In this document: positions 1,978-5,183 of the stretch, piece by piece
How the letters are laid out: each line of letters begins with the position of its first letter
How positions within the stretch are numbered: the first letter of the stretch is position 1
NCBI GenBank assembly: GCA_023443625.1
Contig: JAEZTQ010000084.1
Coordinates: forward strand, 1-5,183
Reading direction: 5' to 3'
DNA from: Bacillota bacterium
GTDB taxonomy: Bacteria; Bacillota_A; Clostridia; Lachnospirales; Lachnospiraceae
DNA length: 5,183 nt
The notes under the pieces: model-generated
Databases searched by the model: none
What the model saw: the letters and a program-made list of their open reading frames with translations, nothing else
Told to the model about the DNA's origin: nothing
Translations under genes and position numbers: made by a program

Positions 1978-3006
1978 TTACCTCCAATGAAAGGCTGGAT
2001 ATTCATCAAGATCGCCGCGAATTACTCTCGCAAAAAGCTGTGCGCCCGCATAAGGAATTAATCCAATTTCTATCTTCTGTTCAAAAAACGGATGAATAAT
2101 CTCCTCTTTTTTTCGTTTTTGCCATTGATCAATCACCATTCTTCTTGCTTTATCCGATAAAATAAACCGCCCGCTTTCAGCTTCAAAATCCTTTGCTTTA
2201 ATTTGCTTTAGATTAATCAATGACAATGCAAGTCTATCACAAAGCGGCGCACGTAATTCCTCCATCAAGTCAAGTGCAAGAGAGGGTCTGCCCGGACGAA
2301 GAGCATGTAAAAATCCTGCTGCTGGATCAAGTCCCACACACTCAAGAGCTGATTGCACATCATTTTTTAAAAGCATATATAAGAACGACAAAAGAGCATT
2401 CACTTCATTTTCAGGCGGATGACGGCTTCTCTTTTCAAAAACAAGTTCACCTTCCTGCAACTTAATCATGTCATCAAAAGCAAAGAAATAGTCACTTGCG
2501 GCATTACCTTCCAATCCCCTCATGGAATCAATATCAGATGCCGTATCCAATAAAATAGCGGTTTTAGCAATTTTTTCAGCCGCTCTGACAAGGTTGTTCT
2601 TTCTTGTTTCATCCGTCTGTTCTCTTGCACTCTTCATTAATACCATACGGCTATTAGCAAATTTCGCATATAAAATGGTTTTCACAATGGCAACCGAACA
2701 TTTTTTATCATTAATAGCGTCATACTGTTTCTTTCTGAGTAAAACATTTCCGCTAACTGGTCCATAGATTCTGCCATAAAACTTACCATAGTCAGACAAA
2801 AAAGATAAACCTATATTTCTTTCACCGCAAAAGGCAATAAAAGGGGTTGATACTGTGGTATTACCAAAGCAAAGAATTGATTCGATTGTATGGGAAGGAA
2901 TTCTTGCTTTTTCTACACCACCAATTTTAATACCAATAGCTTCATTCTGGCAAAACAAATAGCTGTCCGGTGTTAAAACATAAAGTACATTCTGCAGTTT
3001 TTTCAT
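1978..3006 (-). CDS. cas1: CRISPR-associated endonuclease/integrase Cas1
   Basis: The 342-residue length is typical of Cas1 in I-C loci. The N-terminal beta domain starts MKKLQNVLYVLTPDSYL. The helical C-terminal domain carries the metal-binding residues: Glu166 in GLEG, His234 in GFLHALRPGR, and Asp246 and Glu249 in LALDLMEELR. RHPPEN at 195-200 and NALLSFLY at 203-210 are also family signatures. With Cas2 it cuts and joins protospacer DNA into the first repeat; in I-C systems Cas4 works with this pair to choose spacers with the right flanking motif. The ATG overlaps the cas4 stop by 4 nt (ATGA), and GGAGGT at 3020-3015 provides the ribosome site. All catalytic positions are present, so adaptation looks intact. 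Confidence 0.98.
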   Translation of the reverse strand: MKKLQNVLYVLTPDSYLFCQNEAIGIKIGGVEKARIPSHTIESILCFGNTTVSTPFIAFCGERNIGLSFLSDYGKFYGRIYGPVSGNVLLRKKQYDAINDKKCSVAIVKTILYAKFANSRMVLMKSAREQTDETRKNNLVRAAEKIAKTAILLDTASDIDSMRGLEGNAASDYFFAFDDMIKLQEGELVFEKRSRHPPENEVNALLSFLYMLLKNDVQSALECVGLDPAAGFLHALRPGRPSLALDLMEELRAPLCDRLALSLINLKQIKAKDFEAESGRFILSDKARRMVIDQWQKRKKEEIIHPFFEQKIEIGLIPYAGAQLFARVIRGDLDEYPAFHWR

Positions 3007-3662
3007 ACATCATCACCTCCGATAGCGGCTTGCCTTACCCTGTTGTTATATGTCCTTGCGCTACTTTTTAGCTTGGGCATACACAATTCATTGAGCGAAC
3101 ACTTTTTACATTTTGCCGAATACTCCCCTGGAGGCACATTATTTGTACCAAATAATCTCCAGAGACTCTTTGCGTCACTCTCTACCTTACGCCGCAAATC
3201 TTCAGTAAACTCAATCTCCACCCTACGATGAGCATTCGTATAAAAAATGGCTCCTTTCGTTATAGCGCAGCCATACATCTCTTCCAGACACATAGCCTGC
3301 CCACAGAGCTGAATGTTGTATTCCTCCTCGTCACGAATTACACCATGTTTATACTCGATAGGGTACAATATAAATCGTCCTTCATGAAAAGGAAAAACAA
3401 AGCCGTCTCCATTCATAACAGCTTCAATACAATCACATTTCCCGCTGAGCCTCATTCTATGAGAATGCACTGAAAAATCATAAAGATTAATAATATCTCC
3501 CCGCTTTACCTGCCCCTGTGAATGAACCCGCTCATGGGAAATCGTACCCTCCATGGTGTACTCATTATCATTCCAGGCATTTTCAAGAAGAATGAGCGCC
3601 GCTCTCCTTTTGCAAAATCGATACTGCGATAATAATGACAGGTGCAAATAATCACTATCCAC
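3003..3662 (-). CDS. cas4: CRISPR-associated exonuclease Cas4
   Basis: This 219-residue RecB-like nuclease carries an iron-sulfur cluster. Cys17 in QYRFCKRRAAL and the C-terminal group Cys185, Cys188 and Cys194 (CKKCSLNELC) are the four cluster ligands. His43, Asp77 in LSGKCD, and Glu103 and Lys105 in PIEYK form the nuclease site, followed by the helix with Gln118, Gln122 and Tyr130. In I-C systems Cas4 trims pre-spacers next to the PAM and helps set spacer orientation with Cas1-Cas2. The start is GTG at 3662. It is preferred because DSDYLHLSLLSQY matches the normal Cas4 beginning and the next Met is residue 70, past the first cluster ligand and His43. AAGGAG (3680-3675) lies 12 nt upstream, a little far. 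The gene overlaps the end of cas7 by 8 nt and the start of cas1 by 4 nt. Confidence 0.96.
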   Translation of the reverse strand: MDSDYLHLSLLSQYRFCKRRAALILLENAWNDNEYTMEGTISHERVHSQGQVKRGDIINLYDFSVHSHRMRLSGKCDCIEAVMNGDGFVFPFHEGRFILYPIEYKHGVIRDEEEYNIQLCGQAMCLEEMYGCAITKGAIFYTNAHRRVEIEFTEDLRRKVESDAKSLWRLFGTNNVPPGEYSAKCKKCSLNELCMPKLKSSARTYNNRVRQAAIGGDDV

Positions 3663-4644
3663 GATTAATCCAATCTCCTTCTACTTTTCCCCAGCTTATT
3701 TCATCAAAAGGATTGCTTAAAAAGCCCACTTCAACACCTCTGGGCACGTTATTTAAATCTAATGACAAGTCAAAATCATGGTAACTCCTTGCAAACTCTA
3801 CCCCTTCCTTTTTCTTAATACTAACTAAGTCAAAAAGCTTATGGGCAGCTGCACAACCAAGCTTAGCTTGTCTGATACGCTGTTCCTCATTGCTGTCCGT
3901 TCCAACATGACGGAAAATAATCAACGGAGAAACTACTGACATATGCCCCTTACTGGCAGAACGATCATGCTCATACATATTTAAAATTGATTCAAACAGT
4001 ACTTTTAAGTCCTCTTCATCAAAGCCTGTTTCATTGGCAAGATTCGCACTGATAAAGCCTCTTGCTTCGTACAGTCCGTGGGAGATAAATTGCTTTCTTC
4101 CCATTGTCCTAAGCTTGTCCTCATTCTGTTCATGCTCCCACTTCTCATAATCGGCGACCGTTGTTGCTCCCTTAACATTTTCGGCAACCAACATTCTTGT
4201 AATCGATATATCCAGCGGCAAGATTGGTTCAACTGATTTCGCAAAAGTCAATTGTACCGGACCTCTCACTTGCCCCGCGTTAAGTCCGGTAGATAATACC
4301 GCACCAAAAGTTCTTACATCATAAAAATTTTCACAGGCATAATTTCTTGCAGTATTAACTCTATTCTTATCCTTCGATGCTTTTCCCTCTGTGTTTTCAT
4401 GCGCTTCAGCAATTGCCTTATTTATGTTTGTAGCATTTTGCATAATGATGCGCATACCGGTTTTCCCCTCATAAGCCATCTGAATATAGTTACGGATCCT
4501 GCGTTTTATAGCAACATCTGTAATGTATCCCCGCATGTCTTGCGGGTCAATTCGTGGTGTATTTCCCATATCCGGATCACCATTGGGATTTCCGTTCGCA
4601 CATTCAATGTAAAATAAAAATTCATACCTGCTTTGTAATTCCAT
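3655..4644 (-). CDS. cas7c: Type I-C Cascade backbone subunit Cas7c (Csd2)
   Basis: This 329-residue Csd2-family protein is the repeated backbone unit that coats the crRNA spacer in the I-C effector complex. Signature segments in order are NPNGDPD (19-25), RIDP (31-34), TDVAIKRRIRNY (42-53), YDVRTFGAVLSTG (108-120), GQVRGPVQLTFAKSVEPI (124-141), ITRM (148-151) and HGLYEARGFISANLA (189-203). The protein is somewhat longer than the roughly 280-300 residues I recall for this family. A charged segment near 80-100 and another near 165-180 are the likely extensions. The ATG has AGGAGG (4658-4653) eight bases upstream, inside the end of cas8c. Only 3 nt separate it from the cas8c stop. It ends in TAG, overlapping cas4 by 8 nt. 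Confidence 0.97.
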   Translation of the reverse strand: MELQSRYEFLFYIECANGNPNGDPDMGNTPRIDPQDMRGYITDVAIKRRIRNYIQMAYEGKTGMRIIMQNATNINKAIAEAHENTEGKASKDKNRVNTARNYACENFYDVRTFGAVLSTGLNAGQVRGPVQLTFAKSVEPILPLDISITRMLVAENVKGATTVADYEKWEHEQNEDKLRTMGRKQFISHGLYEARGFISANLANETGFDEEDLKVLFESILNMYEHDRSASKGHMSVVSPLIIFRHVGTDSNEEQRIRQAKLGCAAAHKLFDLVSIKKKEGVEFARSYHDFDLSLDLNNVPRGVEVGFLSNPFDEISWGKVEGDWINRG

Positions 4645-4647
4645 AAT

Positions 4648-5037
4648 TTAATCCTCCTCATTCTCTATCGTTTCTGTTTTTGCTTTTTTCTTATAGATCT
4701 TAGCAATTTGCTGATAGTAGCCAAGTGCAAACTGAGATTGCTGTTCAAGATTCATTGCTTTAGGAAATCCCCCCTCCACCTTTGCTGAAATATCCGCCAG
4801 GATATTGGTGTAATAAATATTCGCCCCTTTACTGAGTTTACTTAAATGGTGTTGGGACAGGGTCGATAATCTTCCAATCACAAGAGCCGGTGAAGTACTT
4901 GCAGAAGTATAGAACCGCTGGATAACCCCCGCACCAACATCTCCTAGTGCATCTTCTTGGATTTTTGCATAAACCGCCATCATACATCCGGCAAGATAAG
5001 CACTATTTGTATTCTGATCGTTTAAATCTTCCTTCAC
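4648..5037 (-). CDS. cas11c: Predicted Cas11c small subunit from an internal start in cas8c
   Basis: An in-frame GTG at 5037-5035 lies eight bases after AAGGAGG (5052-5046), a full-strength ribosome site inside the cas8c coding sequence. It would give a 129-residue, mostly helical, Lys/Glu-rich protein ending at the cas8c stop, starting VKEDLNDQNT (Met in the product). Independent translation of the small subunit Cas11 from within cas8 is established for type I-C, I-B and I-D systems, with an I-C product of about this size. Two or more copies line the belly of Cascade and support R-loop formation. The ribosome site and spacing are seen directly; expression is inferred. The lysine-rich tail (KIYKKKAKTE) is shared with Cas8c. 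Confidence 0.8.
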   Translation of the reverse strand: MKEDLNDQNTNSAYLAGCMMAVYAKIQEDALGDVGAGVIQRFYTSASTSPALVIGRLSTLSQHHLSKLSKGANIYYTNILADISAKVEGGFPKAMNLEQQSQFALGYYQQIAKIYKKKAKTETIENEED

Positions 5038-5183
5038 TGATACATCCTCCTTTTTAATACCTTTATCATGGATCTCTTTACGAATAAGCCATATTTTCAG
5101 GATACGGCAGGCCAGCTTATCCAGCGACTTAGAATTTGCCTTTTTATCCTCATCCATATTGAAAATATCCGAACGAATATAGC
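4648..5183 (-). CDS. cas8c: Type I-C large subunit Cas8c (Csd1), C-terminal part
   Basis: The frame is open to the right edge, giving 177 complete codons before the TAA. An ATG at 5157 is internal and has no ribosome site; codons upstream of it (Y-I-R-S-D-I-F-N) remain open, so the true start lies outside the window. YLAGCMMAVYAKIQEDALGD, STLSQHHLSKLSKG and QQSQFALGYYQQ are recognisable C-terminal Csd1 segments. The full family is around 600 residues, so less than a third is seen here. Cas8c recognises the PAM and helps open target DNA in Cascade; this C-terminal part is the helical region shared with the small subunit. The PAM-recognition portion is not visible. The gene directly precedes cas7c with a 3-nt gap. 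Confidence 0.95.
   Translation of the reverse strand, partial: YIRSDIFNMDEDKKANSKSLDKLACRILKIWLIRKEIHDKGIKKEDVSVKEDLNDQNTNSAYLAGCMMAVYAKIQEDALGDVGAGVIQRFYTSASTSPALVIGRLSTLSQHHLSKLSKGANIYYTNILADISAKVEGGFPKAMNLEQQSQFALGYYQQIAKIYKKKAKTETIENEED
5046..5052 (-). promoter_or_regulatory. Internal ribosome binding site for cas11c
   Basis: AAGGAGG on the minus strand, lying within the codons for Lys-Lys-Glu-Asp of cas8c, is followed by ATGTATCA and then the in-frame GTG at 5037. The eight-base gap is optimal. The ATG at 5045-5043 directly abuts the site and is out of frame, so it is an unlikely start. Confidence 0.75.

Follow-up and report, generated by a model that had tools for sequence, protein, structure and literature searches.

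The cas8c gene at the edge of the window, by which we mean the whole 5,183-nucleotide stretch of Lachnospiraceae DNA analysed here, is very probably translated twice, with an internal GTG start that yields free Cas11c, as in known type I-C systems. Sequence comparison makes it highly likely that an internal Shine-Dalgarno (SD) and start codon within this gene give rise to a smaller second protein of Cascade, Cas11c. What the sequences show is the SD and start site, the codon-selected conservation of this site, the homology of its product to chains of Cas11c and a type I-C setting. The original prediction had taken the site to mean that Cas11c would be translated independently, a reading which both the alignment and the conservation of SD and start support. 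It had also called the gene hidden, because ordinary gene calling would miss it; the word is apt, and the phenomenon itself is already known for I-C systems, as excerpts of PMC7684278 describe.

In the proposed mechanism, ribosomes from the cas8c start, outside the window, would make full-length Cas8c, and other ribosomes would bind the internal AAGGAGG, begin at the GTG at 5037-5035 and produce the 129-residue C-terminal helical bundle, that is, Cas11c. By analogy with solved I-C complexes, two copies of Cas11c would line up with Cas8c in the belly of Cascade and keep hold of the non-target strand in the R-loop. For the window operon, we infer Cas11c production, its 2:1 ratio and this role.

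The window operon and the internal site

The window carries a type I-C operon, cas8c-cas7-cas4-cas1-cas2 with a CRISPR array; cas3 and cas5 would fall outside it. All five genes are on the minus strand. The 3′ end of cas8c, encoding the large subunit, occupies 4648-5183 (Pfam Cas_Csd1 PF09709, 2.7e-36, profile positions 416-559 of 559; PADLOC Cas8c, 7.3e-34), with the tail open in frame from 5181 and the 5′ end of the gene outside the window. It is followed by cas7c, encoding the backbone subunit (3655-4644; PF05107, 9.6e-87; Cas7b, 6.4e-88; Cas7c, 5.5e-86), cas4 (3003-3662; PF01930, 1.5e-19; Cas4c, 2.4e-68), cas1c (1978-3006; PF01867, 1.2e-97; Cas1c, 7.8e-133) and cas2 (1686-2009 for the open reading frame as listed, with the profile match starting at residue 12; PF09827, 7.2e-25; Cas2c, 1.5e-36). 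The array, at 291-1502, comprises 19 copies of a 32-nt repeat, found by a repeat search that allowed up to 8 mismatches. Seventeen of the 19 copies are identical, and the variants are at 489-520 (1 mismatch) and at 291-322 (4 mismatches), the latter being the most degenerate repeat and lying at the end distal to cas2. We take the array to be on the minus strand, judging the orientation of the repeat by that of I-C repeats. The nearest relatives of the window Cas8c tail in a scan of genome contigs are clostridial metagenome-assembled genomes (MAGs); no relative of the tail was found among viral contigs, and a plasmid search with the window cas region gave five records with weak partial matches.

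Within the cas8c tail, an AAGGAGG at 5052-5046 on the minus strand is separated by the 8-nt spacer ATGTATCA (5045-5038) from a GTG at 5037-5035, which encodes valine in the Cas8c frame and is assigned as a start from the sequence and from the choice of valine codons in relatives. From this GTG, 129 codons run in frame with the cas8c tail to the common stop at 4650-4648, so that cas11c, assigned by homology and by its conserved start, spans 4648-5037. The AAG and GAG of the SD are codons -5 and -4 before the start, a register common to the relatives. The seven-base SD, eight-base gap, in-frame GTG and 129 codons of the original prediction are exact, and its range of 4648-5052 extends from the SD to the stop. 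Directly after the SD there is also an out-of-frame ATG-TAT-CAG-TGA (5045-5034), whose stop overlaps the GTG start.

The pairing of the window SD with the anti-SD of the 16S tail, for which we assumed a generic sequence, is predicted at -11.8 kcal/mol, as against -11.5 and -13.8 kcal/mol for the sites before cas7 and cas1 in the same operon. The RNA around the SD is weakly folded (z = +1.47; 190 of 200 shuffles fold at least equally well), and the SD sits in a loop of the minimum free energy structure. The GTG is at -13 from an anchor tyrosine, two codons upstream of the modal start at -11. Among the 148 cas8c genes compared below, the best start is at offset -13 as ATG in ten genes, as TTG in one and as GTG in the window alone; as a rule, GTG initiates translation less well than ATG.

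Taken by itself, the window SD is not significant against synonymous recoding, as 34% of the recodings drawn from the 177 codons of the gene itself match its strength. Strong SD-like stretches that lack a well-placed start also occur elsewhere in the window, one of them in cas4 (-11.6 kcal/mol). The significance of the window site therefore derives from its conservation in relatives and not from the site taken alone. The same 34%, together with the frequency of Lys-Glu at this place in the alignment of relatives, would favour a view in which the AAGGAGG is a by-product of a conserved Lys-Glu in Cas8c and is unused for initiation; the codons chosen in relatives, described below, make this very unlikely.

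Conservation of the start and codon choice in cas8c relatives

Relatives of cas8c were collected by a contig scan with the window tail (22 loci) and by PF09709 searches of 13, 394 and 392 genomes, for which most remaining matches were fetched. From the searches of 394 and 392 genomes, matches that lacked the C-terminal domain were left out, as were some further ones, including G397:C74, G611 and G643; in a later search, matches given without a locus were fetched only in part. The resulting 178 open reading frames with a Cas11 domain were reduced to 176 by removing L103 and L173, both shorter than 150 aa, to 163 by removing identical sequences and to 148 at 90% identity, including the window gene.

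A start codon is found 11 codons before a conserved tyrosine in 115 of these 148 genes (78%), and an anti-SD meta-profile of the set has one strong peak, near -10 kcal/mol, just upstream of this modal start; beyond the flanks of the peak the listed means are about 0 to -4.2. These data bear on the possibility that the small subunit is cut from Cas8c by a protease or begins at a different in-frame codon, such as the ATG at 5157, where a 169-codon open reading frame does begin. No single offset from -45 to -14 carries a start codon in more than 12% of genes, as against the 78% at -11, the SD peak at this site is the sole strong one, and the solved Cas11c chains begin at this place; we accordingly give such an origin very little credence. 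Initiation at the conserved site is the reading that we follow.

A start codon is present within -16 to -8 of the tyrosine in 146 of 148 genes, and it is accompanied by an SD of -7 kcal/mol or better in 144 and of -9 or better in 130, counts that are helped somewhat by picking the start with the best SD within this nine-codon range. The mean SD of the region is -11.2 kcal/mol, compared with -7.2 for synonymous recoding with the codons of each gene; the observed SD is in the better half of recodings in 142 of the 148 genes and within the best 5% in 25. Under a strict definition, 119 of the 144 cas8c genes with a length of 500 aa or more have an SD-start pair at the homologous site, and elsewhere in the same genes 54 in-frame pairs occur in 89,973 codons. 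A held-out set of 63 open reading frames, reduced to 51 by removing those 90% alike and with the repeat loci of G300, G214 and G080 left out, has the start in 49 and the start with SD in 46.

The original prediction asked for conservation of the SD and GTG in close relatives, and the relatives found do not refute it, with the reservation that the nearest of them is only 51% identical to the window gene. All 14 non-redundant relatives of at least 40% identity keep an SD, with pairing of -8.1 to -13.9 kcal/mol, and a start within three codons of the window site, ATG in 12 and TTG in two; GTG is used in none of the 14.

Codon choice at the site bears on whether the SD and start are functional or a by-product of the amino-acid sequence. 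Valine at -11 is encoded by GTG in 48 of 48 genes, where 12.9 would be expected from the same genes, and leucine by TTG in 12 of 12 (2.1 expected), two tests that are independent of the choice of best-SD start; in the held-out genes, GTG encodes valine at -11 in 20 of 20. For glutamate at codon -4, counted from the start, GAG is used in 104 of 106 (40.9 expected), and for lysine at codon -5 AAG is used in 74 of 84 (32.8 expected), counts that carry some selection, being placed relative to the best-SD start. Outside the SD register there is no enrichment, with GAG for 18 of 61 glutamates at -3 (21.7 expected) and AAG for 13 of 45 lysines at -6 (16.9 expected). Codon choice in the SD and start is under selection. 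The synonymous-recoding and codon tests and the held-out set together show that the site is conserved beyond the amino-acid requirement, and an SD that merely follows from amino-acid constraint is rejected by the codons used at both SD and start.

Least credible, to the point of being negligible, is the idea that the SD belongs to the out-of-frame ATG at 5045 or brings about a translational pause. In that other frame AAGGAGGATGTATCAGTGA does read Met-Tyr-Gln-stop, with the stop overlapping the GTG, but the spacer between the SD and this ATG is zero, and several relatives (for example L003, L088 and L171) have no ATG right after the SD, whereas the in-frame start is conserved. The internal GTG is the start that the SD would serve.

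A few genes depart from the pattern. In the set of 148, a start codon within the range searched is missing from L161 and L138, and the SD at the start is only -5.6 kcal/mol in L155 and -3.9 in L118, a fused gene described below; the five failures among the 51 held-out genes are L219 and L244, without a start, and L223, L180 and L250, with SDs of -5.8 to -6.7. In L161/L212, L138/L213, L219 and L244, no in-frame ATG, GTG or TTG falls within the searched range.

One of the short sequences set aside, L173, consists of an SD, a GTG and cas11c (about 4015-4430, plus strand) directly before cas7, cas4 and cas1, as assigned by Pfam. A PF09709 search of its genome found no other part of cas8c, and none was found upstream; one TGA lies inside its PF09709 match. 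This arrangement fits cas11c as a stand-alone unit, or a decaying locus.

Cas8c lineages with fused Cas11 domains

Three genes found in the PF09709 search of 394 genomes, L116, L117 and L118, encode additional Cas11-like domains without a break in the open frame. L118 (G300:C180, 1028-3733) has 902 codons and three bundles and lies between cas5 and cas7, with cas4 and then a cas1 cut by the contig end downstream of cas7. At the usual site its best start is a TTG, the one with the SD of -3.9 kcal/mol, and none of its 12 strongest SD-like sites is normally placed before bundle two or three; close to bundle two, a weak site (-7.5) cannot act as an SD for the in-frame GTG-TTG codons, since it overlaps them.

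Searching with bundles two and three of L118 gave 74 proteins, of which 58 have three bundles and 16 have one according to the domain profile. The three-bundle set (protein clusters P0034-P0091) consists of 57 proteins of 853-913 aa and one of 622. At -11, all 58 fused proteins have Pro, Asn, His, Tyr, Asp or Thr, and all 16 single-bundle proteins have Val, Leu or Met; some of the fused ones carry Met, Val or Leu at positions neighbouring -11. We count this replacement, along with the retained site of L173 and the weak folding around the window SD, in favour of internal initiation in the window gene. In a midpoint-rooted FastTree of 216 Cas8c sequences, the 57 fused proteins included (P0034-P0089 and L118) group in a single clade (support 0.999), separate from L116 and L117; by parsimony, the extra bundles would have been fused at least twice. 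The count of three bundles equals the total in the solved I-C Cascade, namely Cas8c's own and two Cas11c, as given in excerpts of PMC7684278, and two Cas11 per I-C Cascade are also stated in excerpts of PMC11899642. From the DNA of L118, the one member with readable DNA, and the residue change in the 58 proteins, the internal start appears to have been lost in the three-bundle clade, and the simplest reading seems to be that fusion replaced internal translation there.

L116 (an open reading frame of 779 codons, plus strand) and L117 (1959-4310, minus strand) are Cas8c genes with one extra Cas11 bundle and so two bundles each. Both retain an SD and GTG before the first bundle, and no comparable SD and start precedes the second among the 12 strongest SD-like sites of each gene; their internal product is predicted to be a Cas11-Cas11 tandem. 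When bundle two of L117 was searched against proteins, only P0108 and P0109 among the best 120 of 696 matches are of such length (780 and 779 aa), and by length and identity these are the L117 and L116 proteins themselves.

In wider genome searches, the triple fusion was found in G300 only, with no other in a domain scan of the loci fetched from genus, family and class-sample searches. In the genus of G300, two of 12 genomes have cas8c, the one besides G300 being single-bundle; G800 (L180), of the same genus, has an ordinary single-bundle Cas8c with an ATG and the weak SD of -6.7 kcal/mol. Matches were obtained in four of 87 genomes in the family and in 14 of 391 in the class sample. Fused proteins searched against viral contigs gave two loci, each with one bundle, and the last two bundles of L118 gave six plasmid records with partial matches in ordinary cas8c and no match in phages. 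Of the papers listed in searches of open-licence full texts, at most 20 per search and judged by titles and the starts of abstracts, none reports tandem Cas11 domains fused to Cas8c, which is weak evidence.

Taken together, we consider it probable that internal initiation is the dominant, perhaps ancestral, supply of the I-C small subunit, and that at least one lineage swapped it for a Cas8c-Cas11-Cas11 fusion of ~850-910 residues in which the start was lost and the 1:2 ratio hard-wired, while a second lineage, represented by two MAGs, fused one bundle and kept the SD and GTG, which would give a tethered Cas11-Cas11 pair.

Identity as Cas11c and comparison with known systems

The window cas11c is very probably a further example of known biology, internal initiation, to which the conservation statistics and the fused clade add value. 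A complete annotation of the window I-C operon should include cas11c, and heterologous expression of the operon calls for either the internal start or cas11c supplied as a gene of its own. Conservation at the codon level, seen in 144 of 148 and 46 of 51 genes, offers an inexpensive criterion for cas11c annotation. The fused clade is a natural experiment on whether it matters that the small subunit is free and in what ratio to Cas8c it is present.

The predicted window product matches solved Cas11c chains (7kha_K, E 1.4e-12; 8g9s_H, E 3.9e-14), and the window Cas8c tail also matches the Cas8 chains of the solved I-C complexes. Extrapolated from the alignments, the N-termini of the Cas11c chains fall 2-3 residues from the window GTG residue, in agreement with the prediction that the GTG lies at the distance expected for the I-C small subunit; the proposed alignment with Desulfovibrio vulgaris Cas11c works, the N-terminus being ~2 residues off. 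Assignment to Cas11c thus draws on homology to both the Cas8c C-terminal bundle and the solved Cas11c chains, on the in-frame SD and start at a conserved position with a stop common with cas8c, and on the type I-C operon context.

The closest parallel is D. vulgaris Cas11c itself (PDB 7kha chain K), which has an internal start at the homologous position of cas8c and the same C-terminus, and whose 124-residue chain is matched by the window product over residues 3-122; unlike it, the window sequence, which is distant, has 129 codons and a GTG start. The best PDB match is the Cas11 of 8g9s, which we take to be from Neisseria lactamica, a separate chain of 124 residues with a match that spans chain residues 8-117 only. 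Excerpts of PMC7684278 describe an internal ribosome-binding site in D. vulgaris cas8c that gives a small subunit equivalent to Cas11, and there O'Brien et al. (2020) name the Cas8c-Cas11.1c-Cas11.2c belly of I-C Cascade. Other fusions described in excerpts of PMC10910872, one joining Cas8 and Cas11 in an I-F1-related Cas8-HNH system and one joining Cas8 and Cas5 in I-C, differ from Cas8c with tandem Cas11 bundles. The gene-within-gene principle of the window cas11c is also that of archaeal Cas11b from cas8b, where, according to excerpts of PMC11899642, mutation of the internal start codon leaves a single product; that system is of type I-B, and its complex forms without Cas11b.
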